A stretch of 64,000 nucleotides of DNA, taken from assembly GCF_034259325.1 (NCBI RefSeq), contig NZ_JAXIVS010000004.1, positions 62,001 through 126,000 of the forward strand, given 5' to 3'. The DNA comes from Hyalangium ruber. Lineage in GTDB: Bacteria; Myxococcota; Myxococcia; Myxococcales; Myxococcaceae. This document shows positions 24,083 through 52,949 of this stretch, in pieces. The notes beneath the pieces were generated by a model. It ran no database searches and was not told where the DNA came from. It saw only the letters and a list, made by a program, of their open reading frames with translations. Position numbers and translations under genes: made by a program. How positions within the stretch are numbered: the first letter of the stretch is position 1; each line of letters starts with the position of its first letter.

Positions 24083-24411
24083 TCCCTGGCTCCCAGGCGG
24101 CCGAGGAAGGAACTGCCGGGCCACCTGGGCCGGGCTTTTCGGCTGTGGCCCCCAGGGTGTCAAGCAACAGCGGAAGCGCAAGCCTCGGACGCGCCGCGTC
24201 AATGACGTCTGGCTGTCTGCCCCCCAGGCAATCACCGCCAGTGTCCCCTGGAGGGGGGTGGATCCGTTCGGTCTTTGTTGATCCCCGAGTCAGCGGGCAC
24301 GGGTCCTGGCTGCCTCCCCTTGGCACGGACCCATACGACACCAAGGTTGTCCCAGGGACGCACAGCCGACCGCATTGCCCTGGCGATGCGATGGGAGGGC
24401 GAGGGCAGCGA
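24083..24411. other. Intergenic region, divergent operons
   Basis: 329 bases between fahA and the hybrid kinase gene. No gene, tRNA or long inverted repeat was seen. It probably holds both promoters, but no convincing -35/-10 pair could be picked; the TGGCAC at about 24325 lacks the distal element of a sigma-54 site. Confidence 0.5.
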
Positions 24412-27400
24412 ATGTCAGAGGGCTTTCCACAGGTTGGCGCCAGTCCCGGTGAACCGCTGCCCGGGCGGCGGCTGGGGAACCGCTTCGAGCTGCTTCAGCG
24501 CCTGAAGACGGGTCGAGGCATTTCGACCTGGCTGGGGAGCGACCTGCGGAGCGGGGGCCGGGTCGTCATCAAGGTCACCTCCACCACCGCCCTGGCCTCG
24601 GCGACGCGGCAACGGCTGGAGCACGAGGCGGCGGTGCTGGAAGAGCTGGACAGCAGCTTCGTGGTGCCCGTGCTGCACCTGGGCGTCTCCAACGAGCTGC
24701 TCTATCTGGTGACGCCCTACATCCCGGGCGAGTCGCTGCAGGAGCGGCTCACGCGCGGCAGCCTCACCCTGCCCGAGGTGCTCACGCTGGGCCAGTGCAT
24801 GCTGGCGGCCCTGGCGGAGGCCCACCGACACGGCGTGCTGCACCGGGACGTGAAGCCCGCCAACATCATCATCGAGGGCCAGCCGCTGGAGCGCGCCACG
24901 CTGGTGGACTTCGGCCTGGCCCGCAGCGAGCGGCTGGACCCGTCGCTCCGGGACCTGCCCGTGGGCACCGCACGCTACCTCTCGCCCGAGCAGGCCGGGC
25001 TGCTCAACCGCCCGGTGGAGGCCACCTCGGACCTGTACTCGGCGGGCATCGTCCTCTTCGAGGCGCTCTCCGGCCGCCCCGCCTTCGATGGTGGCTCGGT
25101 GGGAGAGGTGCTGCGCCAGCACCTGGCCGCGCGCCCCAAGCTGCGCAGCGGCGGGGTGGAGGTGCCCCGCGCGTTGGAGGAGCTGGTAGGGCGGCTCTTG
25201 CAGACCGACCCGTCCGACCGCTACCAGTCCGCCGAGTCGGCGCTGGCGGACCTGCGCGCCCTGGACGAGGCGCTCTCGCACGGCGAGGCGGAGCCGGAAC
25301 TCGTCACCGGCGCGCATGATCAGCGCCGCAGCCTCACCGAACCCTCCTTCGTGGGCCGCCACGAGGAGCTGGCGTTGCTGGAGCGCGAGCTGGAGCGCAC
25401 CCGCTCCGAGCCGGGCCGGCTGGTGGTGGTGGAGGCCGAGTCCGGCGGAGGCAAGAGCCGGCTGATCGAGGAGTTCTCCGCGCGCGCCGTTCACCACCGG
25501 GCGTGGGTGCTCCAGGGGCAGGCGGTGGATCAGGCCGCGCTGCGCCCCTTCCAGCTCTTCACGGGCGTGGCGACCACCATCGCCGCGGCGGCGAAGGAGA
25601 AGCCCGCGCTGGCCGAGACGCTGCGCCAGCGACTGGTGGGCCAGGAAACGGCGCTGTGTACGGTGTTACCGCAGTTGGAGCCGATGCTGCGCCCCGCTCC
25701 GCAGCAGCACCTGGGCCCCGAGTCCTTCGGCGAGCACCGCGGCATCCGCGCCCTCACCTCGCTGCTGGGCGCGCTGGGCACGGAGGCCGAGCCGGCGGTG
25801 GTGCTGCTGGATGACTGCCAGTGGGCGGACGAGCTGACGCTGCGGGCGCTGGAGAGCTGGCAGCAGACCGCCGAGCAGAGCGCGGGCCACACCATGATCG
25901 TGGTGTCCTTCCGCAGCGAGGAGGTGGGCCCCGGACACATGCTGAGGCGGCTGAAGCCCAGCGCCCACCTGCGCCTGGCAACCTTCGGCGCCGCCGAGGT
26001 GGCCCGCATGGCCGAGTCCATGGCGGGCGCCCTGCCACACGAGGCCACGGAGCTGGTGGCGCGCCTGTCCGAGGGTAACCCCTTCATGGCCTCGGCGGTG
26101 CTTCACGGGCTGGTGGAGGATGGCGCCCTGGTGCCCAGCCCCGATGGCTGGCAGGTGGACGCGGCTGCCATGGCGCACGTGCGCTCCTCGCGCCAGGCGG
26201 CCTCGTTCCTGGTGCGTCGGCTCAAGCGGCTGCCGGCGGACTCGCTGCGGCTGCTCTCGGTGGGCGCGGTGCTGGGCAAGAGCTTCGGCCTGGAGCGCGT
26301 GGCCTCCCTGTCCGGCACTCCACGAGAGCGGGTGACCGTGGCCCTGGCCGAGCCTCGCCGTCGCCACATGCTGTGGGAGGACACGCCGGACCGCTACACC
26401 TTCGTCCACGACAAGCTGCGCGAGGCGCTGCTGGGGCTCCTGGGGCCCGAGGAGCTGAAGGAGCTGCACCGGCTGGCGGCGCGCGCCATTGCCTCCAGTG
26501 CTCAAGCGGACCCCTTCGAGCTGGCCTATCACTTCGACGCGGCGGGCGAGTACACCCAGGCCCTGCCCCACGCCCTGGTGGCGGCGGAGCGGGCACGGCA
26601 GCAGTTCGCCCTGGAGACGGCGGAGCTCAATTACCGCATCGCCGAGCGCGGCGCGGAGGGCGCGAACACGGACACCCGCTACCGCATCACCGCGGGGCTG
26701 GGCGATGTGTTGATGCTGCGTGGCCGGTACGAGGCGGCCCAGCAACAGCTCGAGCTGGCGCAGAGCCTGGCGAGCGATCGGGTGGAACAAGCACGCACCT
26801 GGGCCCGACTGGGAGAGCTGGCCTTCAAGCGCGGCCGTGGCGACGAGGGCAACGCGGCGCTGGAGCAGGGGCTGAGGCTGCTGGGGCGCTGGGTGCCCGG
26901 CAGCAACGCCCTGCGAGGGCTGGGCGCGGTGTGGGAAGTGGCCGTGCAAGCGGGCCACACGCTGCTGCCCAGGCTCTGGCTGGCGCGCCGCCCGCTGGAC
27001 CACAGCGAGGAGGACCTGCTCGCCGTCCACCTCTACAGCCGCCTGGCCTACGCGTACTGGTACCACCGGGGGCGCATGGCGGTGCTCTGGGCGCACCTGC
27101 GCGAGCTGAACATCGCCGAGCGCTACCCGCCCACGCCGGAGCTGGCGCAGGCCTACTCCGAGCACTCGCCGGTGGCCACGGTGCTGCCCTGGTACGAGCG
27201 CGCCATCGACTACGTGTCCAAGTCCCTGGCCATGCGCCGGGAGATGGGCGACGTGTGGGGCCAGGGGCAGTCGCTGCACTTCTACGGGCTGGCCATGTAC
27301 TGCACCGGCCGCTTCGAGGAGTGCATCGAGCGGATCCGCGAGGCCATCCGCCTGCTGGACCGGACCGGGGACCGGTGGGAGGTGAACAACGCCCACTTCC

Positions 27401-29418
27401 AGATGGCCATGGCGCTGTACCGGCTGGGCCGGCTGAAGGAGGCCCTGAGCTCCGCCCAGCAGTTGCACCGGGCGGCGCTGGCCATCGGAGACCGGTACGC
27501 GGTGCGGCTCGCCCTGGAGGTGTGGGGCAAGGCCTCCGGGGGCCGCATCTCCCGGAGCCTGCTGGAAGAGGAGTTGGGCAACCCCGGCGCCGATCCCCAG
27601 TCCCGCGCCGGCGTGCTCATGTCGGAGGCCATCCGCCAGCTCCACGAGGGAGACGTGGAAGGCGCGGTGACGACGCTGGAGCAGGCTGAGCGCATCGTCG
27701 AGGGCTCGCACCTGCGCTCCGAGTACGTGGCGCCCGTGCCCGCCTGGCTCACCACCATGCTGCGCCGGCGCCTGGAGGGCGTCTCCGCGTTCGCGCCGAA
27801 GCGGCGCGCGCAATTGCTGGAGGAGGCCGAGCGGGTGGCTCGCCGGGCGCACCACGTGGCGCGCACCTACCGCAACAACCTGCCCCACGCCCTGCGCGAG
27901 CGGGGCCTGCTGGCGGCCATGGCCGGCCACCCCCGCAAGGCCCGCCGGTGGCTGGAGCAGAGCCTGCGGCTGGCCGAGAAGCTGAAGATGCGCCACGAGC
28001 GCGCCCAGACGCTGCTAGCGCGCGGTCAGGTGGGCAAGGAGCACGGCTGGCCCGAGGCGGCCGAGGACCTGAGGACCGCCACCCGGGAGCTCCAGGAGAT
28101 GGAGCAGGGACTGAGCGAGGAGTCCCACAACCCCGGCGCCACGCCCGAGCGGCCAGAGACGCTGTCCCTGGTGGACCGCTTCCCCCGGGTGCTGGAAGCG
28201 GGCAGGCGCATCGCCTCGGCGCTCACGCGCGAGGCGGTCTTCGAGGCGGTGCGCCAGTCCATGCTGGAGCTGCTGCGCGCCGAGCACTGCGCCGTGCTGG
28301 ACCCGACCGACGTGCTGCCCGAGGACGTCCGGGCGGCCGAGGGCGTGAGCCGTACCGCCATCGCCCGCGCGATGGAGACGGGCCAGCCCGCCATCATGGG
28401 GCAGGGCATGCCCGGCGGGGTGAGCGAGAGCATGGAGATGATCGGCGTTCGCTCGCTGCTGTGCGCGCCGCTCCAGGTGCGCGGCAAGACGGTGGCGTGC
28501 GTGTGCGCCAGCCACCGTCAGGTGGGCGAGCTGTTCGGCGAGGACGAGGAGCGGCTCACCGGCTTCATCACCACGCTGGCCAGCGTGGCGCTGGAGAACG
28601 CGGAGGGCTTCGAGCGGATGACGGCCCTGTCCGAGGAGCGGGGCCGGCTCTACCTCGAGGAGCAGGAGGCGGTACGCCGCCGGGACGACTTCCTGTCCAT
28701 CGCCGCGCATGAGCTGAAGACGCCGCTCACCTCGCTCCAGCTCCACCTCCAGGGCCTCATGTCGCAGATGCGGCAGGCGGCGGTGCGGCCGCCACCCGAG
28801 CGCGTGGCGGCCAAGCTGGACTCGGCCAACCTGCAGACGCAGCGGCTGGGCAGGCTCGTCAACGAGCTCCTGGACATCTCCCGGGTGGCGCAGGGCCAGC
28901 TCCTCGGCAAGCTCGAGGACGTGGACCTGGTGACCCTGGTGCGCGGCATCATCGAGCGCTCGCGCGAGGCACTGGCGCGGGCCGAGTGTCCCGTGGAGGT
29001 GCGCGCCAGCGGCAGCGTGGTGGGACACTGGGACGCCATGCGGCTGGAGCAGGTGGTGGGCAACCTCATCACCAACGCCATGAAGTACGGGGCAGGCAAG
29101 CCCATCGAGGTGACCATCGAGGGTGGGCCCACCGACGCCCGCATCCAGGTGCGCGACCATGGCATCGGCATCGCCCCGGAGGACACCGAGCGCATCTTCG
29201 AGCGCTTCGAGCGCGCGGTGTCCGTGCGCCACTACGGCGGCTTTGGCATCGGCCTGTGGCTGGTGCGAGAGATCGTCCAGGCGCTCGGGGGGACGGTGGA
29301 GGTGGAGAGCACCCCGGGCCAGGGCTCCACCTTCACCATCACCCTCCCCCTGCGCAGCCCGGAGCAGCCCGTGGCGGGAGACGCCTTGCTCAGCGCCGAG
29401 TCAGCTCCAGGTAGATGA
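24412..29418 (+). CDS. Hybrid Ser/Thr kinase - ATPase/TPR - GAF - histidine kinase
   Basis: 1,668 residues from the ATG at 24412 (GAGGG just upstream). In order: a eukaryotic-like kinase domain (about 20-290; H-R-D at 144-146, D-F-G at 166-168); an AAA-like ATPase region (Walker A G-G-G-K-S at 345-349, L-L-D-D Walker B near 465-468); a long helical TPR-like middle; a GAF domain (about 1250-1400); and a HisKA/HATPase kinase with H-E-L-K-T-P (His1433), N-L-I-T-N (about 1551) and G-F-G-I-G-L. All key kinase residues are present. No response-regulator domain is fused and none lies beside it. Such multi-kinase proteins occur in myxobacteria and cyanobacteria; the signal is unknown. Confidence 0.92.
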   Translation: MSEGFPQVGASPGEPLPGRRLGNRFELLQRLKTGRGISTWLGSDLRSGGRVVIKVTSTTALASATRQRLEHEAAVLEELDSSFVVPVLHLGVSNELLYLVTPYIPGESLQERLTRGSLTLPEVLTLGQCMLAALAEAHRHGVLHRDVKPANIIIEGQPLERATLVDFGLARSERLDPSLRDLPVGTARYLSPEQAGLLNRPVEATSDLYSAGIVLFEALSGRPAFDGGSVGEVLRQHLAARPKLRSGGVEVPRALEELVGRLLQTDPSDRYQSAESALADLRALDEALSHGEAEPELVTGAHDQRRSLTEPSFVGRHEELALLERELERTRSEPGRLVVVEAESGGGKSRLIEEFSARAVHHRAWVLQGQAVDQAALRPFQLFTGVATTIAAAAKEKPALAETLRQRLVGQETALCTVLPQLEPMLRPAPQQHLGPESFGEHRGIRALTSLLGALGTEAEPAVVLLDDCQWADELTLRALESWQQTAEQSAGHTMIVVSFRSEEVGPGHMLRRLKPSAHLRLATFGAAEVARMAESMAGALPHEATELVARLSEGNPFMASAVLHGLVEDGALVPSPDGWQVDAAAMAHVRSSRQAASFLVRRLKRLPADSLRLLSVGAVLGKSFGLERVASLSGTPRERVTVALAEPRRRHMLWEDTPDRYTFVHDKLREALLGLLGPEELKELHRLAARAIASSAQADPFELAYHFDAAGEYTQALPHALVAAERARQQFALETAELNYRIAERGAEGANTDTRYRITAGLGDVLMLRGRYEAAQQQLELAQSLASDRVEQARTWARLGELAFKRGRGDEGNAALEQGLRLLGRWVPGSNALRGLGAVWEVAVQAGHTLLPRLWLARRPLDHSEEDLLAVHLYSRLAYAYWYHRGRMAVLWAHLRELNIAERYPPTPELAQAYSEHSPVATVLPWYERAIDYVSKSLAMRREMGDVWGQGQSLHFYGLAMYCTGRFEECIERIREAIRLLDRTGDRWEVNNAHFQMAMALYRLGRLKEALSSAQQLHRAALAIGDRYAVRLALEVWGKASGGRISRSLLEEELGNPGADPQSRAGVLMSEAIRQLHEGDVEGAVTTLEQAERIVEGSHLRSEYVAPVPAWLTTMLRRRLEGVSAFAPKRRAQLLEEAERVARRAHHVARTYRNNLPHALRERGLLAAMAGHPRKARRWLEQSLRLAEKLKMRHERAQTLLARGQVGKEHGWPEAAEDLRTATRELQEMEQGLSEESHNPGATPERPETLSLVDRFPRVLEAGRRIASALTREAVFEAVRQSMLELLRAEHCAVLDPTDVLPEDVRAAEGVSRTAIARAMETGQPAIMGQGMPGGVSESMEMIGVRSLLCAPLQVRGKTVACVCASHRQVGELFGEDEERLTGFITTLASVALENAEGFERMTALSEERGRLYLEEQEAVRRRDDFLSIAAHELKTPLTSLQLHLQGLMSQMRQAAVRPPPERVAAKLDSANLQTQRLGRLVNELLDISRVAQGQLLGKLEDVDLVTLVRGIIERSREALARAECPVEVRASGSVVGHWDAMRLEQVVGNLITNAMKYGAGKPIEVTIEGGPTDARIQVRDHGIGIAPEDTERIFERFERAVSVRHYGGFGIGLWLVREIVQALGGTVEVESTPGQGSTFTITLPLRSPEQPVAGDALLSAESAPGR

Positions 29419-42326: not shown

Positions 42327-43379
42327 CTACTGCGTGATGGGACTCCGGATGCCCCGTCGCATGATCTCCTCGTTGACCCGGGGGAAGACCCGGATCGGCA
42401 TACAGCGCCCGGACACGCAGAAGAGCCCGCCCGTACACGCGGGAACACAGGGCACCGGAGCCTGCTGGCACTTCCCGGCCGAGCAGAAGCCGGAGATGCA
42501 CACCGAGTTGTTCGAGCACTCCTGCCCGTCGGGCAGCAGGCACACCTGGTTCGTGTGGCACTGCGAGGGCGGACGGCACTCGTTGTTGTTCTCGCACTTG
42601 CCGTCATCGCGCGTGCAGCGCTCGTCCTTGCAGTAGAGGCTGGTGCATTGCCCGTCCCCCGTGCAGGCCTCGCCCGGCGCCAGCAGGCACGTGCGCGTGT
42701 TCAGCAGGGGGATGCACTTCTGCCGCGCCGGGCAGGTGTCTCCCGGGCCGCAGTTGCGCCCCAGCTCCGCCTCCGCGCACCGGCCCTCTTTGCAGCGGGC
42801 CGAGAGGCACTGCCCGTTCTCCTTGCAGCCCTTGAAGCCATCCTCGCCCAGGCACACGCCGCCAGCCGCTCCCGAGCACGCCAGCCCCTTGCCACACTCC
42901 GTCCCCTCGCAGGGCTCGCCCAGGTCCGGCCCTCCCCTTCCCGCGAGGATGGCCGCCACGCCGCCACCAATGACGAGCACGCCCGCCGCCAGCGCGACGA
43001 TCCACCATGGGAACGCCTTCTTCACCACGGGCGCCGCTTCCGGAACCACGAAGGCCACCGTGGGCCCGTCGGCGTACTGCTCGTCCGGGTTGGCCACGTT
43101 CGTCACCAGCACGTGGAAGGTGTAGCGGCCCGGCGGCGTGCCCGGAGGCACCTGCAACTTCACGATGTACTGCTGCGTCCCGTCCGGCGCGAGGTCACGC
43201 TCCGCCTCCCCGGCGATGGTCGCCCACTCGGGGCGCGCCTGCCCGGCCATCATCACCGTGGCCCGCGCACGCACCGGAGCGCGCAGCGCGTTGGACACCG
43301 TGAAGGCCAGCTCTCCCTGCCCCGAGGCACTCAGGTTCACCGACTCCGTTGCGGCCGTGATGTCGAAAGCGCGTGGCAT
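42327..43379 (-). CDS. Single-pass membrane protein with ~28-cysteine C-terminal domain
   Basis: 350 residues. Residues 1-115 look like an Ig-like beta domain (V-P-P-G-T-P-P-G-R-Y-T-F-H-V), 122-147 are one membrane helix, and 155-335 hold about 28 cysteines in repeated C-x(n)-C blocks of a Dickkopf/EGF-like pattern (e.g. G-E-A-C-T-G-D-G-Q-C). The Cys-rich part presumably faces the periplasm or the outside. The start overlaps the preceding tail-protein stop by one base, so it is coupled to the injection-system genes. Possible membrane anchor or cargo; no homology claim. Confidence 0.7.
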   Translation of the reverse strand: MPRAFDITAATESVNLSASGQGELAFTVSNALRAPVRARATVMMAGQARPEWATIAGEAERDLAPDGTQQYIVKLQVPPGTPPGRYTFHVLVTNVANPDEQYADGPTVAFVVPEAAPVVKKAFPWWIVALAAGVLVIGGGVAAILAGRGGPDLGEPCEGTECGKGLACSGAAGGVCLGEDGFKGCKENGQCLSARCKEGRCAEAELGRNCGPGDTCPARQKCIPLLNTRTCLLAPGEACTGDGQCTSLYCKDERCTRDDGKCENNNECRPPSQCHTNQVCLLPDGQECSNNSVCISGFCSAGKCQQAPVPCVPACTGGLFCVSGRCMPIRVFPRVNEEIMRRGIRSPITQ

Positions 43380-43897
43380 CAGCTCGCTCCTGGCTGCGGG
43401 AGCTGCGTGAAGTGCAGCTCGTAGGTGACGTAGGCGGGCTTCTCCATCTCGATGATCCGCTCCAGCATGGGCCGGTGCGGCTCCAGCTCCGCCGGGGCTC
43501 GCACGCGGATGTGGAAGGGCCGGGGCAGACCGTCAGGGCCGAGCACCCGCTCCTCCAGCTCGAAGTCCCGGCGGCCCGTGGCGGTGGACAGGAACAGCAA
43601 CAGCCCGCGCGCCGTGCCTCGCCAGCGCGACAGCTCCACCCCCGCGGCCACCAGCTCGCGCAGGCGCCCGAGCCCCGTCGTCACCGGTAGATCCAGGTCC
43701 ACCCAGTGCGCCAAGAAGGGCACGAAGCGCTCCGGTGCCCGGCGGGGGTCGAAGAGCGCGTCCAGGTTCTCCAGCACCGCTTCCGAGGGCGCGTGGAGCG
43801 CCTCCATCACGGCCAGCATCGCCGCCAACGGGCCGCCTGGGCGAGCGGTCCGCTGGAAGACGCCCGGCAGCACCCGGAGGATTTCAGCGCTCTTCAT
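43379..43897 (-). CDS. Phage tail protein I-like baseplate wedge component (Afp12-like)
   Basis: 172 residues. The segment L-P-G-V-F-Q-R, D-A-L-F-D-P-R-R-A-P and H-W-V-D-L-D-L-P matches the tail protein I (P2 gpI) family that works with baseplate J. The Y-E-L-H-F-T end is typical of the contractile-injection-system variants. It overlaps the baseplate J gene by 14 bases. Confidence 0.82.
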   Translation of the reverse strand: MKSAEILRVLPGVFQRTARPGGPLAAMLAVMEALHAPSEAVLENLDALFDPRRAPERFVPFLAHWVDLDLPVTTGLGRLRELVAAGVELSRWRGTARGLLLFLSTATGRRDFELEERVLGPDGLPRPFHIRVRAPAELEPHRPMLERIIEMEKPAYVTYELHFTQLPQPGAS

Positions 43898-46478
43898 CGT
43901 CCGTCACCACCTCCAGCTCGTGGGAGCCGGAGCACAGGAGCCAGGTGGGCGGCAGCGTCACCTTCTCGGTGAACTCGCGCGTGGAGACGGGCTCGTAGCG
44001 CTCGCTGCCCTGGGGCCGACGGAAGACGCCGCTCGGGCCTCCCGCCAGCAGCGGCGCGCCCTGTGGCAGAGCGGCCAGCGCGTACACGGGTTGGAAGAGG
44101 CGCTCGGCCTCGCGCAGGGGCAGGCCGCTGCCCACGTCCGGCCGCTGCCAGGTGGCGTTGGGGCGACTCGCGTCCTGCCACAACACCCCCACGCGGTGCG
44201 AGCCGGCGTAAACGGTGGCGCCGGAGAATGCGAGCGCCAGACAGCTTCCTCCGTCCCAGCCCTTGTCATAGGCGCGCCAGCCGTCCGGTGGATCCGCGCT
44301 CCCCAGGAGCTCTCGGCTCACGCAGCCCTTGCCCGGATCCGAGCCGCTCGCCGCCGCCAGCCCTGCCCAGAGGAAGGCGCGGGGCCCGTCGCGCTGCACC
44401 TCCAGCACGCGCACGTCCTGCCCGCGCAGCCCGATGTGCCGGAAGGTGCCGCTGCTGCCTCCGCCACTGGAGAGGAAGACTCCCGTCTGCCCCATCCCCG
44501 CCACCGCCACGCTCACCCCGCCGCGCACGTTCAGGGCGGTACACACGGCGAAGAAGCCCAGGTCCTGGTTGCTGGGGTCCACCAGCACCTGCAGCGGCGT
44601 GGCACCGGGCCGCATCGCCAGCTCGAAGAGGCCCACGCGCGTGGCGATGAGCAGCACTGGAATGCCCTCGCGCATCGTCCACGCGAGGTCCTCCACCGTG
44701 TCCACGGTGTGGGTGGACTTGTCCCACGTCTCCCCGCAGTCCCAGGAGACATGGACGCGTGAGCGTTGCTGCGTATCGCCTACCAGCCGCGCCGCCACTG
44801 CCACCAGCCCTGCGCGCGCCGGGTGCGCCTCCACCACCTCTACCTGCTCTCCGGGGAAGCGGCCCGCGGGCTCCCAGCCGTCTCCCGCGTTGACGGAGCG
44901 GAAGAGCGTCGTGTCTCCACCCGCATAGAAGGTGTCCGGCTGGAAGTTGTCCGCCGCCAGGGTGCGCACCTCGCGCGGCACCTCTTCCACGCGCAGCCGG
45001 ACCCGGTCCACGTAGCTCACCCCCGGCTCGGACAGGAGGATGTCGTAGACGTGCGAAGCCCGGAGCGCATGGCCGAAGCGCCACCCTCCGGGCCGCAGCG
45101 GCGAGGGCAGCGGCGTGAGGGTGCGGTAGAGCCGCTCCAGGAGGCGCTCGCGCAGCGCCCCCGTGTCCTCCGCCCGGTGCGCCACCACGCGCGCCACCAC
45201 GCTCATGACCTTGTTGCGCGCATACGTCACCCGGATCTCCGTGCCCAGGGGCTTGCGCTCCTCCAGCTCCCGCTGGATGCGCGCGCGCGCTTCCTCCGTC
45301 TCGTGCTCGCGCAGCCGCTCCACCGTCACGCCCTCGCCGTAGCGGCCCTGCACTTCCGGGGGCAGGTGCGGCACCAGCAGCACCTCCACCGTCCCCGCCG
45401 GGGCGTGTTCCCAGATCTGCGCCAGGGTGATGGCCTTGGCGCGCGCCACCGCTCCCGAGGCTCGCAGCGCCAGCAGCTCGAAGTCCTCCGCCGTAACGGC
45501 CCGCCGCAGCGAGTGCAGCTCCTGGGGTCCGCGCACCAGCGCGTTCTCCACCGTCTCCGCCGGGCGCCCGCCCACTGCGGGCCGGGGGTTGCTCACCTTC
45601 ACGCCAGGGATGGGATCCTTGAGGACCTCCAGCGCGTTCGCCGCCACGTTTCCCGCCGCACCTCCGCCTCGGCGGTACCAGAGGCGGATGGCGCGCCCTG
45701 TGGCAGGAATGGCCGCCAGGGCTTTCGCCTCGCCCAGGGTGCCCTGCTCGGTGGACATCCGCGCCGAGGGCGCGAAGGTGATGGTGCCCGTCATCCGGTC
45801 CACCACGTAGGCGGGCTCGTTCGGAGGCAGGTAGGCGAAGTCCTCCACCTCGCGCCAGATGCGATAGGTGCGCCCCTCGTGCTTGCGCGCCGGGGCCCGG
45901 CCATCGAGCTCGGAGGGCTCTGCCTCCACGCCCACCACCAGGTCGAGCGAGTCGCCTGTGGGAGCAACGATGGGTGGCCGGCGCGCGCGCACCGAGAGAC
46001 CCGGCTGGCCGGTGCCCTGGCCTACCAGCTCCGCGTCCACCTGCTCGCAGTGGTAGGCCAAGGCCTCCACCTCGCTCTGTCCCGGGAGGATGCGCGCCGC
46101 GTCCGCCGTGAGGAAGACCACCGGCTCGGCACCCGCGTCCGCGCGGGACAGGGTGACGCGCGTGCCCCGGGGAATGTCCACCGGGCGCTCGGCCGGACGG
46201 CTCACGCTGAAGATCAACGCCACGGAGGCGGCCGCTGGCGGCTGGAGGCGCACTCCCAGGAGCCGGAGGAACTCCACGTACGCCTTCTCCGGCAGCCGGT
46301 TGAGCCGGTAGAGCATCGTCTCCGTCAGGTGCGCGAAGGCCTCCAGCAGCACCATGCCCGGATCATGCGGGCTCAGATCGGTCCACTCCGGGCACGCCTG
46401 CACCAGGCGCGTGCGCGCCTCATCGACGAGCTGCTGGAAGGTCCGGTCATCCAGGTGTGGGGACGGGAGCGAGGTCAT
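43884..46478 (-). CDS. Baseplate J (gp47)-like protein fused to an Asp-box beta-propeller
   Basis: 864 residues. The N-terminal ~490 are a baseplate assembly protein (D-L-S-P-H-D-P-G-M-V-L-L-E-A-F-A-H-L-T-E; R-G-T-R-V-T-L; E-V-L-L-V-P-H-L). Residues ~500-850 instead form repeats with sialidase/sortilin-type Asp boxes: S-V-N-A-G-D-G-W (about 523) and the canonical S-W-D-C-G-E-T-W at 578-585, plus Y-A-G-S-H-R-V-G-V-L-W. This addition is not found in ordinary Afp11 proteins that I know of. The start overlaps the gp25 gene stop (ATGA). Confidence 0.82.
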   Translation of the reverse strand: MTSLPSPHLDDRTFQQLVDEARTRLVQACPEWTDLSPHDPGMVLLEAFAHLTETMLYRLNRLPEKAYVEFLRLLGVRLQPPAAASVALIFSVSRPAERPVDIPRGTRVTLSRADAGAEPVVFLTADAARILPGQSEVEALAYHCEQVDAELVGQGTGQPGLSVRARRPPIVAPTGDSLDLVVGVEAEPSELDGRAPARKHEGRTYRIWREVEDFAYLPPNEPAYVVDRMTGTITFAPSARMSTEQGTLGEAKALAAIPATGRAIRLWYRRGGGAAGNVAANALEVLKDPIPGVKVSNPRPAVGGRPAETVENALVRGPQELHSLRRAVTAEDFELLALRASGAVARAKAITLAQIWEHAPAGTVEVLLVPHLPPEVQGRYGEGVTVERLREHETEEARARIQRELEERKPLGTEIRVTYARNKVMSVVARVVAHRAEDTGALRERLLERLYRTLTPLPSPLRPGGWRFGHALRASHVYDILLSEPGVSYVDRVRLRVEEVPREVRTLAADNFQPDTFYAGGDTTLFRSVNAGDGWEPAGRFPGEQVEVVEAHPARAGLVAVAARLVGDTQQRSRVHVSWDCGETWDKSTHTVDTVEDLAWTMREGIPVLLIATRVGLFELAMRPGATPLQVLVDPSNQDLGFFAVCTALNVRGGVSVAVAGMGQTGVFLSSGGGSSGTFRHIGLRGQDVRVLEVQRDGPRAFLWAGLAAASGSDPGKGCVSRELLGSADPPDGWRAYDKGWDGGSCLALAFSGATVYAGSHRVGVLWQDASRPNATWQRPDVGSGLPLREAERLFQPVYALAALPQGAPLLAGGPSGVFRRPQGSERYEPVSTREFTEKVTLPPTWLLCSGSHELEVVTDDEER

Positions 46479-46906
46479 CCGGGGCCTCCCGTGAGCGTCA
46501 GCGCGTAGAGGAAGCGATCTCCCCGCCCCGTGGCGCGCACCCGGTACTCCAGGGTGACGTCCAGCCGGAACGCATCCTCGGGGTTCCGGCCGGCTTCGAC
46601 CTGGAGCAGTTGGATTCGCGGCTCCCAGCGCTCCAGCGCGCGACGTACGTAATAGATGGCGAGCCCCGCGGTGGTTTCGTCGTTGGGAGAGAAGGTCAGC
46701 CGGTGCAGGTCGCAGCCGTACTCCGGACGCATCACCCGCTCGCCCGGCAGCGTGGTCAGCAGGAGCAGCACGGCCTGGCGGATGGCGGCGTGCTCCTCCA
46801 CCATGTCGATGGCGCCCGTGGGTGCGAGGCGCAGGCCCGGATGCTCCTCGCCCATGTCGAGGTCCGGGTGCAGGAACCGCCAGGCACGATAGCGGGGCGC
46901 GCTCAT
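46475..46906 (-). CDS. gp25/W-like baseplate lysozyme-fold protein (Afp9-like)
   Basis: 143 residues from the ATG at 46904-46906. Family marks: I-R-Q-A-V-L-L-L-L-T-T-L-P-G-E-R-V-M-R-P-E-Y-G is the hallmark of the GPW/gp25 family, followed by L-T-F-S-P-N-D and the R-A-L-E-R-W-E-P-R-I strand. It is a baseplate wedge protein linking the sheath to the hub. Overlaps the PAAR-like gene stop by four bases. Confidence 0.9.
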   Translation of the reverse strand: MSAPRYRAWRFLHPDLDMGEEHPGLRLAPTGAIDMVEEHAAIRQAVLLLLTTLPGERVMRPEYGCDLHRLTFSPNDETTAGLAIYYVRRALERWEPRIQLLQVEAGRNPEDAFRLDVTLEYRVRATGRGDRFLYALTLTGGPG

Positions 46907-47244
46907 CCCGCCTCCGTCACCAACGTCTGCCCGGGGGCGTTCACCTTGTACTCCACCACTCCGGGAGGCGTGCCGTCCGTCAGCCCGCTCAGCGTGTCCA
47001 GGCAGATGTGCCGCCCGTCGATGCGGACGAAGTCGGAGTAGCCCACCTTCACCGCCAGCGTGTTGGTACACGGCTTGATGGTGGGGCCGATGTTGGGGCA
47101 CCCGGCGATGGGCCGGCCCTCGGGGTCGGCGCGCACCAGCACCGGCCGCCCTTCCACCGTGACCCAGGCCTGCGAGGCCACGAGTCCCACCTTCCCCAGC
47201 TCGTGGGCACACACCACCAGCGCGTCGACGGTCAGCAGGCGCAT
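46903..47244 (-). CDS. PAAR-like spike-tip protein (Afp10-like)
   Basis: 113 residues. Compact beta-rich protein with C-A-H-E-L-G-K, G-C-P-N-I-G-P, K-P-C-T-N-T and R-H-I-C-L-D, the Cys/His positions expected of zinc-pinned PAAR-like tips. Its place between the VgrG-like spike and gp25 supports this reading. It would sharpen the spike and could carry cargo. Confidence 0.75.
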   Translation of the reverse strand: MRLLTVDALVVCAHELGKVGLVASQAWVTVEGRPVLVRADPEGRPIAGCPNIGPTIKPCTNTLAVKVGYSDFVRIDGRHICLDTLSGLTDGTPPGVVEYKVNAPGQTLVTEAG

Positions 47245-47245
47245 G

Positions 47246-48763
47246 TCACCCTCTCCGGAAGTCGATGGATTGCCCGCGAATGACGACTGGCTGTCCCGGC
47301 GCCTCGATGTCCAGAGGCGCCGTGGCGTGGAGGCGCACCTTGGAGGGCGTCAGCTCGAGGTAGCTGCCCGCCCCGTCCTCCACCCGGAGCGACTTGCCCG
47401 CATCGTCCAGCCGCAGCAGGTGTCCTCCCGGAGTCCGCGCCGTGTAGCGACGCACCGAGCCGCCCTCGACGCCCGTGTCCGAGGGAGCGCTCTCGCCGAA
47501 GAAGCCCCCCATCACCATGCCCCGCGCGGGGTCTCCGTCCGCCAGGACGAGCAGCACCTGATCGCCCACGTCCGGCAACATCACCAGCCCCTTGCCCGAG
47601 CCCGCCCCGAGGCAGAGCACCTGCATCCACTCCGTCTCCACGTCGTTGTAGGCCGGCAGCGTGGCGCGCACCCGGCCCAGTCCGTCCGGATCATCCACGC
47701 GGCTCACCACGCCCAGGGTCGCGGCCGAGGCACGCTCCCGGGCCCGGCGGGGAGGCGGGGCCGAGGACAGCTCCGAGACGAAGCCGCGCTGGGTGTCCAG
47801 CAAGTGGTTCACGGCGGTGAGCACGTAACGGCCGGAAATGGCGGGGGTGATGCCGCGAACCTCTACCCGCGTTCCCGGGCGCAGCCGCGCGTCACCCTCC
47901 GCCAGCGCCGTCAGCACCACCTCTCGGGCGCTGCGGTGGTCCAGCTCCGCCTGGGCGACGGCCTCGGCGTGGGCATCCGCCTCCGCCAGCTCGTTGACGA
48001 GGGCGCGCTCACCGGGGCTCCCCAAGAGCGAGGGAGGCGCTTCCACCTCCACCTTGCGGCCCTGCCGGGCGTGAGAGGCGCGGGCGGAGTGATGCCGCGC
48101 CCGGAGCGGATCCCACCCTCCCGCCGAGACCGAGCGACACGCGGGATCTCCGTTCACCTCCACGGTGGCTTCCTGGAGCGACTCGCCGAGCAGCAGCGGC
48201 AACGGCTCGCCCTCGCCCTCCAGGGTCACCAGCCTCAGCGCGCCGTCTCGGAGCACCAGGTACACGCCACAGCGGTCCGCCAGCTCCACCAGGAAGTCGA
48301 GGTCCGACTGCCCGTGCTGCACCAGGTGTCTCCAGAGCGGCCCAGGTGCCGAGGCCTCAACGGACAGCCCCAGGTCCGACACCACCTCCCGGGCCACATC
48401 CCGCAGCGTCACCTGCACGTGCGCCCGCACCGGCTGGCGCTTGCGCAGTCGGTGGAGCACGTCGTAGCCGCGCACGCGCACTGCGCGCGCGCCTCCAGCC
48501 ATGTGGGCGTATTCCACCGCCGTCACCTCGCCGGAGAAGAGCGGCTCCGCCTGAGCCGTGGTGGAGACGCGCAACGCAGTTCCCGGCGCCACGCCCTGGG
48601 TGATGACACCACCGCGTGGATCCACGAAGGTCAGCTCGCACAGGGTGGGCAGGGAGAGCCGCTGCTGCACCCGCACGGCGCTCAGGTCCCGCAGCTCCGC
48701 GAGGGGCAGCGGCGCGCCGCCCAGCTCGATGGTCACCGCGGGCAGTCCCTGGACGCGGCTCAT
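47246..48763 (-). CDS. VgrG/gp5-gp27-like central spike protein (Afp8-like)
   Basis: 505 residues. The first ~340 residues match phage late-control D/VgrG N-terminal domains (F-S-G-E-V-T-A-V-E-Y, H-G-Q-S-D-L-D-F-L-V-E-L-A), followed by an OB-type portion (G-V-V-S-R-V-D-D-P-D-G-L-G-R-V-R, G-D-Q-V-L-L-V-L-A-D-G-D-P) and a short beta-helical end (Y-L-E-L-T-P-S-K-V-R-L). ATG overlaps the LysM gene stop (ATGA). No fused effector domain. Confidence 0.9.
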   Translation of the reverse strand: MSRVQGLPAVTIELGGAPLPLAELRDLSAVRVQQRLSLPTLCELTFVDPRGGVITQGVAPGTALRVSTTAQAEPLFSGEVTAVEYAHMAGGARAVRVRGYDVLHRLRKRQPVRAHVQVTLRDVAREVVSDLGLSVEASAPGPLWRHLVQHGQSDLDFLVELADRCGVYLVLRDGALRLVTLEGEGEPLPLLLGESLQEATVEVNGDPACRSVSAGGWDPLRARHHSARASHARQGRKVEVEAPPSLLGSPGERALVNELAEADAHAEAVAQAELDHRSAREVVLTALAEGDARLRPGTRVEVRGITPAISGRYVLTAVNHLLDTQRGFVSELSSAPPPRRARERASAATLGVVSRVDDPDGLGRVRATLPAYNDVETEWMQVLCLGAGSGKGLVMLPDVGDQVLLVLADGDPARGMVMGGFFGESAPSDTGVEGGSVRRYTARTPGGHLLRLDDAGKSLRVEDGAGSYLELTPSKVRLHATAPLDIEAPGQPVVIRGQSIDFRRG

Positions 48764-49509
48764 GAGCCCCTCCGGAGCGCGCTGGCCGAGGGCAGCCGGA
48801 GCACCGTTCCCGCGGGGACCTGCATCGGATCAGCGATGCCGTTGAGCGAGGCCACCAGCCGCCAGAGCGCCGGATCGCCGTAATACTGGTGGGCGAGCTC
48901 ATCCAACCGCTGGCCCGCCACCGGCGGTTGCCCGGGTGAGCCGCCCGCCCCGAGCACCTCGTGGGCCTCGAAGGACTCGGGCGGCAGCCGCTCCGTCACC
49001 TGCTCGGCGGTGAGGCCCGCGGGCAGCGGAGGTGGCTTGGCCTCCGAGGAAGCCTCGTCCACTCGCAGGAGCCGCATGCGCAGCCAGGAGCGCCGCGGGG
49101 CTCCGGAGGTCGTGAAGTGCTCCAGCCGCTCCGCGATGGAGGCGACCACGCCCGGCTCATTGATCCGCTTGCCCCAGACCACGCGCACCCGGGGTGGCCG
49201 ACCGAAGCCCCTCTCCTCCACGCTGTTCTCCGCGAGTCGCCACAGCGGCTGGGTGAGATCCCGCACATCCTCCGTCTGGATGGAGGAGCCCAGCAGCGAC
49301 ACATCGAAGAGCAACTCCAGCAGCAACTCCGTGCTGCCCCCGCCGGTGAAGAGGAGCGCGTCGTCCATGGGACCGCCCCCCGTCACGGCTCCGCCCAGGG
49401 AGCGACGGGGCCTCAAGCCCGCGGTGCGCCGTATCACCAGCGTCTCCGGATTGAGGAGCGCGCCGATGCGCTCTCCGCTCGGCTCGAGGAGGAAGGCCAC
49501 GCGCTCCAT
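48760..49509 (-). CDS. LysM-domain tail-tube adaptor (Afp7-like)
   Basis: 249 residues from the ATG at 49507-49509, which overlaps the previous stop (TGATG). The N-terminal ~170 residues hold the adaptor fold (N-P-E-T-L-V-I, V-R-V-V-W-G) and 196-243 a LysM domain (L-D-E-L-A-H-Q-Y-Y-G-D-P-A-L-W-R). In these machines it joins the tube to the spike. Confidence 0.87.
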   Translation of the reverse strand: MERVAFLLEPSGERIGALLNPETLVIRRTAGLRPRRSLGGAVTGGGPMDDALLFTGGGSTELLLELLFDVSLLGSSIQTEDVRDLTQPLWRLAENSVEERGFGRPPRVRVVWGKRINEPGVVASIAERLEHFTTSGAPRRSWLRMRLLRVDEASSEAKPPPLPAGLTAEQVTERLPPESFEAHEVLGAGGSPGQPPVAGQRLDELAHQYYGDPALWRLVASLNGIADPMQVPAGTVLRLPSASALRRGS

Positions 49510-50582
49510 CACTCGCCTCGCTGCTCACGATCGAGCCGGTCCAACCGCTCCCACTGCTGGAGCAGCGCCGCCGCATCCTCCGGATCCGGGGACGAAGGCT
49601 CGGGAAGTTCAGGCCAGTAACAGACAACCCACTCCTCGGAAGGCGGGCTGGACGCGCGGGGCGACGGCCCCGGAGCAGGCAGGGGTGGAGCCTTGGGCGC
49701 ATCGCCTGGCGCTTCCGCGCGTGCCGGAGCCCTTGGCACCTGGAGGACTGTGTTCGGCCCCGTCGCGTGCTCTGCCCTACCGAGACTCCGCGCGGGTTCC
49801 GCGATGGGCATCGAGGTCAGGATGGGACCCAGCAGGGACACCGGGCCCAGCTCCTCCTCCCGTACAGGGGACTCGGAAGCAGTTTCCCGCGTCGCACGGG
49901 GCGCCAGCCCTGGCTCGGACCTCAGCCGATTGGGCGTCGGCATCGATGGAGGAGCGGAGACCTGAGTGGCGGCAGAGACAACGGGCGCTTCCGCCATCGA
50001 AGCCCTCGGCTGTGCCTCTCGGCGCTCGCGCCCGGAAGAAGGGCTCCGTGGCACGGACGGCGCCGAGGAAGCGACGCGGGGCGGCTCGATGCGAGCCTCC
50101 CGAGTGGGTGGCTGGGCCGCCACGCCAGGAGACTCCGGCGTGCGAGTTCGCGGCGTGGAGGTGGCCACGTTCCTGGGCGCGGAAGGAACCTGCTCCGCCG
50201 TACGCCGCGCCGGGGGAGGGAATTTGAAGACAGGCACCGCGGGCGGTGGGGACACAGGTTTCTCCACGGAAGACAGCAGGTGCGGCGCGCTCTGGCGGAC
50301 CTGCTCGACCCATTCCGCGGGAGGACCGGCCCGCAGCGCCTGAACATCCCGCAGCCAGTGACTCGGAGGCCCGTGAGAGGGCCTGGGCTCGCGTGGCGCG
50401 GAAGGAGCCTCCGGCAACGCCTCCTCCGCGCGCGGAGCCTCCTCCTCTCGAGGAGACACCTCGGCCCGAGGCGTCTCGGGCTCGACGGGCTCCGAGAGCA
50501 CCGCCTCCGCCCACGCCTTCATCCGCTTCGCCACGGCGCGGAGCAACGCGGCGCGCAACCCTTTCTCGAAGAGCTCAGCCAC
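49509..50582 (-). CDS. Proline/serine-rich protein in the injection-system operon, function unknown
   Basis: 357 residues from the GTG at 50580-50582, overlapping the tube gene by eight bases. A short N-terminal helix (V/M-A-E-L-F-E-K-G-L-R-A-A-L-L-R) leads into ~270 residues of low-complexity Pro/Ala/Ser/Arg/Glu sequence and an acidic/aromatic C-terminal end (E-E-W-V-V-C-Y-W-P-E-L ... Q-Q-W-E-R-L-D-R). It sits where other systems encode small tube-initiator or tape-measure proteins. Low complexity makes it unsafe to name. Confidence 0.6.
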   Translation of the reverse strand: MAELFEKGLRAALLRAVAKRMKAWAEAVLSEPVEPETPRAEVSPREEEAPRAEEALPEAPSAPREPRPSHGPPSHWLRDVQALRAGPPAEWVEQVRQSAPHLLSSVEKPVSPPPAVPVFKFPPPARRTAEQVPSAPRNVATSTPRTRTPESPGVAAQPPTREARIEPPRVASSAPSVPRSPSSGRERREAQPRASMAEAPVVSAATQVSAPPSMPTPNRLRSEPGLAPRATRETASESPVREEELGPVSLLGPILTSMPIAEPARSLGRAEHATGPNTVLQVPRAPARAEAPGDAPKAPPLPAPGPSPRASSPPSEEWVVCYWPELPEPSSPDPEDAAALLQQWERLDRLDREQRGE

Positions 50583-51063
50583 GGTTGAAGGACTCGAAGG
50601 TGATGACGAGGGACTCGATGGCCACCAGCTGCCCGAGCGCATCGAGGGGAGCGCCGTGCCATTCCGACGGCCAGGCCTCCAGCAGGTTCCAGCGCAGCAC
50701 CTCCGTCACGCCGTCCATGGCGAGCATCAGCACCGACACGTTCTTGCGCTGCGGCTGCCCGCTGACCGAGGCCTGGAACCACGTCCACAGGTCCGACGAG
50801 CGGGTGAGCCCATAGCGCAGCGTCACCTCGCCCAACCGCAGCGGGCCCGCCAGCTTGCGCACCACCGTGCCGCCCCCTCCCTCTCGGTAGGGGATGACCT
50901 CCACCTTCGCGTGCAGCCCGTCGAACTGGGTGAAGTGCCCCTCGTTCACCCCGTCGATGAGCAGCTTGAAGTTGTAGGCGCGAAACGGATCCACCTGCGC
51001 GCCCGGCTGTGCGCCGGGATCCTGCTCGGGCGGTGGCGCCTCGGGTGCCTTGGCCTCAGCCAT
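50575..51063 (-). CDS. Phage tail tube (gp19-like) inner-tube protein
   Basis: 162 residues. After a short Pro-rich leader, the beta-barrel core starts D-P-F-R-A-Y-N-F-K-L-L-I-D-G and continues F-T-Q-F-D-G-L, R-K-L-A-G-P-L, L-T-R-S-S-D-L-W-T-W-F, as in T4-like gp19/Afp1 tube proteins. Only one tube gene is present, whereas the Afp type has two or three. It overlaps the sheath gene by eight bases. Confidence 0.9.
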   Translation of the reverse strand: MAEAKAPEAPPPEQDPGAQPGAQVDPFRAYNFKLLIDGVNEGHFTQFDGLHAKVEVIPYREGGGGTVVRKLAGPLRLGEVTLRYGLTRSSDLWTWFQASVSGQPQRKNVSVLMLAMDGVTEVLRWNLLEAWPSEWHGAPLDALGQLVAIESLVITFESFNRG

Positions 51064-52264
51064 TCTTCACCTCCTCCACTTCCGCGCCCCCGGCGTGCTG
51101 GCCGATGCGGAAGATGATGAACTCGGCCGGCTTCACCGGTGCCAGGCCGATCAGCGTCACCACCTGCCCCGCGTCGATGATCTCCGGCGGGTTGGTCTGC
51201 TCGTCGCACTGCACGAAGAAGGCCTGCTCCGGGGTGCGGCCCAGCAGCGCCCCGTCGCGCCACAGCCGCAGCAGGAACGAGTACACGTCCCGGTGGATGT
51301 TGCCCCACAGCGTCGGCGCGTTCGGCTCGAACACCGTCCAGCCCGTGCCCAGGGCGATGGACTCCTCCACGAAGTTGAACAGGCGCCGCACGTTCACGTA
51401 GCGCCACTCGCTGTCGCCCCCCGCCACCGTGCGCGCGCCCCACACGCGGATGCCCCGGTTGGGGAAGTAGCGAATGCAGTTCACGCCGTTCGAGTTGAGC
51501 TCCGCCTGCTCATCCGGGGTGATGTGGCGCACCAGGTTGCCCGCGCCGAACACCACCTCGTTGGCCGGCGCCTTGTGGACCCCGCGCGTCACGTCCGTGC
51601 GCGCGTAGATGCCCGCCATGTGTCCGGAGGGCGGCGCGTTCACCCGCTCCCCCGTCATTGGATCCTCCACGGTGATCCACGGGAAGTAGAACGCTCCGAA
51701 GCCGTTGTCCGACATGCGCGGGCGCAGCCCCTTGGCGGGTCCCTCCGGCGCCGCGGCGGGAGGCTTCCCTGGCGACTCCAGCAACCCCACCCGCGTGAGC
51801 TGGGCGATGTCCTCCACGTCCTCGGGCGAATCCAGGATGGCGATGCGGTCCTTCATCTTCTCCGCGTGCGAGATCAGCGCATCGTGCGCTCCGGGATCGG
51901 AGAAGCCCGGGGCCGCCACCATGGCCACCTCGCTCACCTCCTCGAGCACCGCCAGCCCCTCGCGCCGGCGCGTGCCGCCGGTGATTCGCGGGCTGTCGCC
52001 GATGTTGATGACGAAGCAGCGCCGCCCACCGTTGAGGAAGAAGCCGTACACGGCGCGAGACAGGTCCGTGCCCGGCAGGTCCGGCCGCGTGAACTCCTTG
52101 AGGAACTGGGGCCAGCCGTTGATGGCCACCGCCTCGTGCAGGCGCGCGTCCGCCAGCGGCGCTCGGCCCACGAAGGCCGCCGTCGTCGTCCCCACTCCTT
52201 GGATGGAGCGTGACCCGGTGGAGACCTCCTCCACGTAGATACCGGGCGTCAGGTAGTTCGGCAC
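51056..52264 (-). CDS. Contractile tail sheath protein
   Basis: 402 residues. Start M-P-N-Y-L-T-P-G-I-Y-V-E-E-V is the phage sheath N-terminus, with T-A-A-F-V-G, G-I-R-V-W-G-A-R-T and the end motif V-T-L-I-G-L-A-P-V-K-P-A-E-F-I-I-F characteristic of contractile injection sheaths. Shorter than most Afp sheaths but with both ends of the core. A single sheath gene is present. The stop of the DUF4255 gene is one base upstream. Confidence 0.93.
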   Translation of the reverse strand: MPNYLTPGIYVEEVSTGSRSIQGVGTTTAAFVGRAPLADARLHEAVAINGWPQFLKEFTRPDLPGTDLSRAVYGFFLNGGRRCFVINIGDSPRITGGTRRREGLAVLEEVSEVAMVAAPGFSDPGAHDALISHAEKMKDRIAILDSPEDVEDIAQLTRVGLLESPGKPPAAAPEGPAKGLRPRMSDNGFGAFYFPWITVEDPMTGERVNAPPSGHMAGIYARTDVTRGVHKAPANEVVFGAGNLVRHITPDEQAELNSNGVNCIRYFPNRGIRVWGARTVAGGDSEWRYVNVRRLFNFVEESIALGTGWTVFEPNAPTLWGNIHRDVYSFLLRLWRDGALLGRTPEQAFFVQCDEQTNPPEIIDAGQVVTLIGLAPVKPAEFIIFRIGQHAGGAEVEEVKNG

Positions 52265-52265
52265 G

Positions 52266-52949
52266 TCACCCCTCCTTCAGCGGCAGACGGATCACCAGCG
52301 GCTCTTGATTGGGAGTCAGCGCCTCGGCGCCCACGTGGAGCACCTCGCCCTTGGCCCGCACCTCCAGGCCCCCGAGGGACTCCACGGGCGGCACGAGCGG
52401 GAAGTGGAAGTAGCCCCGCGCGTCCGTGCGCGTGCCCAGCTTCAGCGACGGCAGCTCCACCAGCGCGCCCGGGATGGGCACGTCTCCAGGCCCCACCACG
52501 CGGCCTCGCAGCTCCTCGGGGCTGGCCGATCGGAGGACGAGCGGGAAGCGCACGCGCTGGACGTTCGGCTCGGCGCGCTCGCGGCGCACCGGCACGCGCA
52601 CCCGGAAGGCGGGGCGCGGGGGCACACCCAGCGTGGCCCACAGCTCCAGCGGGACCGGCGAGAGCTCCACCTCGAAGTCAGCGATCTCCAGCGCCGAGAA
52701 GACGAGCTCACCCAGCAGGTGGTGGGCGCGCTCCGGCGTCTGCGCCCCCACGGTGATGAGGTAGCAGACGGAGAACTGCAGCGGCACGCGGCGCCCCGTG
52801 CGCGCGGGAGGCAAGGCGCCCAGCTCGAGCAGGTAGAGGCTCACGCCCTCCTCCAGGGAGCTTCGATCCGGAGTCGCGAGCGAGACGGGCATGTCTCCCA
52901 CCACGCGCCCTACCCATGCCTTCAGGCGCTGGTCGACCTGGTCGATCAT
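52266..52949 (-). CDS. DUF4255 tail-terminator-like protein with carboxypeptidase-regulatory-like domain
   Basis: 227 residues. The N-terminal ~120 match the Pvc16/Afp16 type (M-I-D-Q-V-D-Q-R-L, V-S-L-Y-L-L-E-L, L-L-G-E-L-V-F-S-A-L), the tail terminator that caps the tube. Residues ~140-215 add a beta sandwich of the carboxypeptidase-regulatory kind (L-R-G-R-V-V-G-P-G-D-V-P-I-P-G-A, T-D-A-R-G-Y-F-H-F). First gene of the operon; the promoter must lie in the 52950-53168 gap. Confidence 0.8.
   Translation of the reverse strand: MIDQVDQRLKAWVGRVVGDMPVSLATPDRSSLEEGVSLYLLELGALPPARTGRRVPLQFSVCYLITVGAQTPERAHHLLGELVFSALEIADFEVELSPVPLELWATLGVPPRPAFRVRVPVRRERAEPNVQRVRFPLVLRSASPEELRGRVVGPGDVPIPGALVELPSLKLGTRTDARGYFHFPLVPPVESLGGLEVRAKGEVLHVGAEALTPNQEPLVIRLPLKEG

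Follow-up and report, generated by a model that had tools for sequence, protein, structure and literature searches.

The contractile injection system CIS-Sc of Streptomyces coelicolor (type IId; PMC12237407, which cites the structure 9gtp) is cytoplasmic and lacks a fibre gene; its wedge proteins are Cis11, of the TIGR02243 family, and a second one of the Tail_P2_I type, and downstream of the baseplate is encoded CisA, a bitopic membrane protein that is needed for firing in Streptomyces. Contact between CisA and Cis11 has been proposed there and is unconfirmed, cisA being toxic in E. coli (PMC12237407). Anchoring to the cell's own membrane is described for the thylakoid-anchored system of Anabaena (PMC8894136; 7b5h), whose Cis11 carries extra domains; in the available part of that report these are not described as propellers, and anchoring runs through baseplate and fibre extensions, via Cis12 and Cis13. 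For haloarchaeal systems that act in the T6SS manner, some of the loci have been linked to a single conserved putative membrane anchor, which has six transmembrane (TM) helices, and no propeller is mentioned (PMC11566945).

The locus described here lies in a 64,000-nucleotide stretch (the window) of the 10.8-Mb genome of Hyalangium ruber. It shares with CIS-Sc a TIGR02243-family Cis11, a Tail_P2_I-type second wedge gene, the absence of a fibre gene and a membrane protein gene downstream of the baseplate (bitopic by predicted topology in the window). It differs in two respects: Cis11 of Streptomyces lacks a propeller and contains a middle domain missing from the window protein, and CisA, whose cytosolic part is disordered, shows no detectable homology to the putative anchor of the window. 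With Anabaena it has in common a Cis11 with extra domains and, as we propose below, own-membrane anchoring; with the haloarchaeal loci, the link to one conserved putative anchor, here with a single TM helix.

The Cis11 gene and its operon

The gene, an ATG-initiated reading frame of 864 codons, sits between the gp25 and Tail_P2_I genes of a contractile-tail operon (Table 1). Its product matched TIGR02243 ('putative baseplate assembly protein') at 1.2e-85 (288 bits, above the curated cut-off of 155.8) and contains a Baseplate_J core at residues 273-451 (5e-11, also above the curated cut-off). The best match among solved chains was 9gtp_1K, the S. coelicolor Cis11 wedge protein (1.5e-65), and an 87%-identical homologue was found in a Myxococcaceae MAG.

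Table 1. Features of the injection-system locus in the window, in operon order
Feature	Coordinates	Strand	Basis or remark
Cap-like protein	52266..52949	-	Family match (weak Pvc16_N, carboxypeptidase-regulatory-like fold)
Sheath, Cis2	51056..52264	-	PF04984 6e-18, PF17482 3e-14
Inner tube, Cis1	50575..51063	-	PF06841 3e-31
Pro/Ala/Ser-rich protein, probably disordered	49509..50642	-	Conserved C-terminal motif; candidate length ruler
Cis7 (CIS_tube + LysM-like tail protein X)	48760..49512	-	Family match
Cis8, VgrG-like hub/spike	47246..48763	-	Family match
Putative PAAR-like spike tip	46903..47244	-	Position
Cis9, gp25-like wedge protein	46475..46906	-	PF04965 8e-25
Cis11 baseplate wedge protein with propeller insertion	43884..46478	-	ORF, family scores
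Inserted Asp-box beta-propeller (by homology), residues 499-838	43965..44984	-	Read as seven four-stranded blades
Asp-box of blade 1, SVNAGDGW, residues 528-535	44874..44897	-	Motif
Asp-box of blade 2, SWDCGETW, residues 578-585	44724..44747	-	Motif
Tail_P2_I / TIGR02242 wedge protein (Cis12-like)	43379..43897	-	Family match
Putative membrane anchor	42327..43379	-	NEW3-like domain 1-115, one TM helix 127-145, Cys-rich ectodomain
Small protein with N-terminal TM helix	41826..42317	-	Predicted TM

The order of genes given in Table 1 recurred in ten other Myxococcota loci that were read from end to end, one of which stops at a contig edge inside the anchor gene. In the window the reading frames overlap at gp25/Cis11, at Cis11/Tail_P2_I and at Tail_P2_I/membrane protein, where the start of the anchor gene overlaps the Tail_P2_I stop. 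The Rhodovulum counterpart of the putative spike tip gave a weak PAAR match, below cut-off. The Pro/Ala/Ser-rich protein between tube and Cis7 has 300-445 residues across intact loci and ends in the motif W-E-R-x-x-R-L-[DE]-R-E-Q-R-G-E; it is a candidate tape measure, or length ruler, and is also kept in the reduced loci described below. The scanned proteins of the window operon matched neither a fibre family nor an AAA ATPase family. Elsewhere in the window, positions 24145-29418 (+) encode a 1757-residue protein that combines Ser/Thr kinase, AAA_16, TPR, GAF and histidine-kinase modules.

The domain inserted into Cis11

Alignment with the propeller-less Cis11 proteins of Streptomyces and Kribbella showed an extra part of ~340 residues (about 499-838) in place of a short loop, after which the last ~25 residues (LPPTWLLCSGSHELEV...) realign with the C-terminus of the propeller-less Streptomyces Cis11. 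The propeller is therefore no C-terminal tail: it is inserted ahead of the final conserved Cis11 stretch and is fixed to the core on either side. A middle segment of ~150 residues in Streptomyces Cis11 is missing from propeller-bearing Cis11 (window ~132-145 vs. Streptomyces 132-289), as if one domain had taken the other's place.

Shuffling the insert 20,000 times produced the strict motif S.D.G.TW twice and two loose motifs a single time, so seldom that the two Asp-boxes of Table 1 are not attributable to chance; blade 1 of the homologues from Deinococcus and Rhodovulum contains S-L-N-D-G-x-[SG]-W. An earlier, sequence-only reading of this DNA had assigned the first ~490 residues to baseplate J and the next ~350, as a terminal half, to Asp-box repeats, with SWDCGETW at 578-585 and SVNAGDGW near 523. 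The family scores bear out the baseplate J assignment, and both motifs were found, the second at 528-535; the repeats stand as well, though the presumed terminal half is the insertion at 499-838.

A profile built from eight diverse inserts had solved Asp-box/BNR propellers as its top matches (3b7f at 2e-7, 6p2k at 1e-5), with the GH74 structures 2cn2, 2cn3 and 4lgn at about 1e-3, and the homology to solved Asp-box propellers was strongest over blades 1-2. Run on 195 Myxococcota genomes, a profile of the insert from 16 close orthologues found only six matches outside the family, and all six proteins scored above the Pfam cut-off for Sortilin-Vps10. Hhalign of the insert gave 80-96% against Asp-box proteins, a set that included L109, picked via Pfam independently of the insert profile, and at most 1.5% against controls. 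AlphaFold returned low-confidence models both for full Cis11 (10 sequences, pLDDT 38) and for the insert alone (2 sequences, pLDDT 32). The Asp-box beta-propeller named in the earlier reading is thus supported by homology, while structure prediction lent it no support. In a register chosen by eye, residues 504-833 divide into seven A-B-C-D strand sets, and leave-one-out scoring with that register gave clear support to blades 4, 6 and 7, borderline support to blades 1 and 5, and none to blades 2 and 3; the seven-blade reading is suggestive only, and the propeller of the window Cis11 is probably seven-bladed.

Known Asp-box/BNR propellers (3b7f; the GH74 xyloglucanases 2cn2 and 4lgn; Sortilin-Vps10) have the same homologous blades and Asp-box motifs, whereas that of the window sits within a baseplate protein and most of its Asp-boxes are degenerate. 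No catalytic BNR glycosidase or sialidase family scored above cut-off for the protein (Pfam, NCBIfam). In the literature searched, neither a propeller as part of a baseplate protein nor PASTA domains in such injection systems were found to be reported.

Distribution and the accompanying membrane protein

The full-length insert was present in 22 of the 147 genomes of the class, the window genome counted. Our first view, that the fusion is limited to Myxococcaceae, was overturned by a plasmid search, which found inserts in Deinococcus sp. AJ005, Rhodovulum and Paracoccus (47%, 38% and 33%, respectively, across the inserted part), in operons syntenic with the Myxococcota ones; the search for the same fusion elsewhere, proposed in the sequence-only reading, was thereby answered both from Myxococcota genomes and from plasmids. 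A related baseplate protein is encoded in 55 plasmid records, and the five propeller-bearing ones alone cover at least 80% of the protein. No relative was found in the viral contigs and phages searched. A tree of the core, which predates the finding of the plasmid homologues, unites the propeller proteins of Myxococcaceae in a single clade (100/100), grouped with actinobacterial ones at modest support (81/79).

The protein encoded after Tail_P2_I in the window comprises a NEW3-like domain, a KK pair, one predicted TM helix and a Cys-rich ectodomain; the KK pair preceding the helix suggests an N-in topology, with the NEW3-like domain predicted to be cytosolic. The same N-domain and TM helix, followed by a PASTA ectodomain, are encoded directly after Tail_P2_I in Rhodovulum and Paracoccus, and by the second gene after it in Deinococcus, where the gene for a different membrane protein lies between anchor and baseplate genes. 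Small TM proteins occur in the plasmid loci at a position similar to that of the last gene of Table 1. No fibre gene is annotated in the four plasmid loci; there, as in the window operon, the fibre position after the baseplate genes is occupied by membrane protein genes.

By blastp (1e-17 to 3e-8), homology of the N-domain and TM helix extends over the Myxococcota, Deinococcota and Alphaproteobacteria, and models built from one side recovered the other at 1e-11 to 1e-32. This anchor family was found at all 13 intact propeller loci tested (some four independent lineages, so that 13 of 13 overstates independence), at none of four reduced loci and, depending on the model, at none or one of 30 propeller-less relatives, the possible exception being a Kribbella NEW3-type TM protein with a weak match (3e-4). 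Conservation within the family is 61% for the N-domain, 69% for the TM helix and 47% for the ectodomain, as expected if the inner end contacts a conserved partner. In one genome (L097:14082-16319, G087) two or three copies of the anchor gene stand in tandem after Tail_P2_I. Stand-alone myxobacterial paralogues (L110:6782-7891, L111:6259-7233, L112:5664-6770, L115:5041-6339) share the NEW3-like domain and TM helix and have LamG-like ends by eye; because it also occurs in these proteins, the N-domain is not specific to injection systems.

Searched against the reading frames of 16 actinobacterial loci, the anchor had no match at E < 1, and its models found nothing in the Streptomyces clavuligerus locus and the weak NEW3-type match alone in Kribbella. 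The S. clavuligerus plasmid encodes after Tail_P2_I (L127:16628-18382) a protein with a zinc-ribbon-like start, a long disordered part, one TM helix and, by eye, a discoidin-like end, a positional counterpart of CisA. The anchor of the window resembles CisA in place and predicted topology, is no detectable homologue of it, and may work in a CisA-like way.

Role of the propeller and the reduced loci

We propose, giving the idea roughly even chances, that the propeller docks a cytoplasmic machine to the membrane of its own cell via the co-encoded single-pass membrane protein. The machine to which the window Cis11 belongs would be a compact relative of the cytoplasmic CIS-Sc that does without fibres, with particles that presumably assemble in the cytoplasm. 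Propellers would lie at the baseplate periphery, 12 per baseplate if the stoichiometry of CIS-Sc holds, since 9gtp has 12 Cis11 chains. They would bind the conserved cytosolic domain of the bitopic protein, while its ectodomain, which varies between lineages (Cys-rich in the window, of PASTA type in Deinococcus and Alphaproteobacteria), would grip the cell envelope; such docking would orient the machine at the membrane and might license firing as CisA does in Streptomyces. The sequences themselves show the starting points of this proposal: that the insert is homologous to propellers, where it is inserted, that the operon is conserved and that the membrane protein occurs together with it. Against it, four species retain the propeller without the anchor, and the propeller may have another role.

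The earlier reading had offered target recognition or membrane docking as the role, in a system with no separate fibre gene. No recognisable fibre gene was indeed found at the locus, and we favour docking, a bitopic protein with a conserved and predictedly cytosolic domain accompanying the propeller in three phyla. Target recognition would make the propeller a built-in receptor-binding domain with which particles released by lysis bind glycans or proteins of other cells, in place of tail fibres; the fibre-less operon would suit this, as would the beta-propeller lectins on some eCIS fibres (PMC12923769). Mean pairwise identity, however, is 72% for the insert vs. 74-76% for the core, and the insert/core omega ratio has a median of 0.88 over 116 non-independent pairs. 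The insert thus varies about as little as the baseplate core, which is not what a typical receptor-binding domain would show, and differs in this from fibres, which evolve rapidly according to the fibre catalogue; this speaks against a host-range domain. The identical insertion site in three phyla and the link to a membrane protein also count against target recognition, which we consider unlikely.

Just as unlikely, in our judgement, is a structural part that braces adjacent wedges or shields the spike, replacing the missing middle domain of Cis11. The loss of that segment from propeller-bearing Cis11 would fit such a part, as would the strong conservation of the insert and its persistence at loci without the anchor, and in Anabaena three extra Cis11 domains touch Cis12 and Cis13 and enclose the spike in a cage (PMC8894136). 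It leaves unexplained, however, why the anchor accompanies every intact propeller locus tested and at most one of the 30 others. Propellers are common binding scaffolds, and one might hold a cargo or effector or bind peptidoglycan directly, which is very improbable: neither an effector gene nor a shared cargo was found to go with the propeller, a cytoplasmic particle could not reach peptidoglycan before firing, and a PASTA anchor would already provide wall binding.

The four species without the anchor (G014, G029, G110 and G111; loci L051, L052, L090 and L091) keep only the tube, the Pro-rich protein, the propeller-bearing Cis11 and Tail_P2_I, between the same flanking genes as in intact loci; sheath, cap, Cis7, hub, tip, gp25 and both membrane proteins are absent at the locus. 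Genome-wide, the sheath C-terminal family was without a match in G014 and G029, as was Phage_base_V in G029; G110 and G111 have sheath loci elsewhere. Pseudogenes and assembly gaps were considered and rejected (flanking genes intact, a single contig in G111, omega below 1). The retained genes are intact, with omega of 0.11-0.40 for tube, core and Tail_P2_I, values above that of a neighbouring enzyme gene and below 1: the reduced loci are under purifying selection, though relaxed. Where anchor and sheath were lost, the median insert/core omega ratio was 1.70 vs. 0.88 (1.44-2.20 over six non-independent pairs), so that constraint on the insert has relaxed more than that on the core; this fits the loss of its partner, non-specifically, the sheath being lost as well. 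The reduced loci may be slow remnants or a reused device.

A joint reading, by which propeller-bearing Cis11 and the NEW3-TM anchor mark a distinct membrane-docked class of injection systems in Myxococcota, Deinococcota and Alphaproteobacteria and the set retained in one Myxococcaceae clade after loss of sheath, hub, cap and anchor serves as a non-contractile device, is speculative, with perhaps one chance in a few of holding as a whole. The question addressed by the docking proposal is how fibre-less contractile injection systems locate the membrane through which they fire. Because the presumed contact would involve two compact, separately expressible domains (propeller and NEW3-like), conserved in three phyla, the idea is directly testable, and the reduced loci pose the further question of what use a tube and baseplate may have without a sheath.
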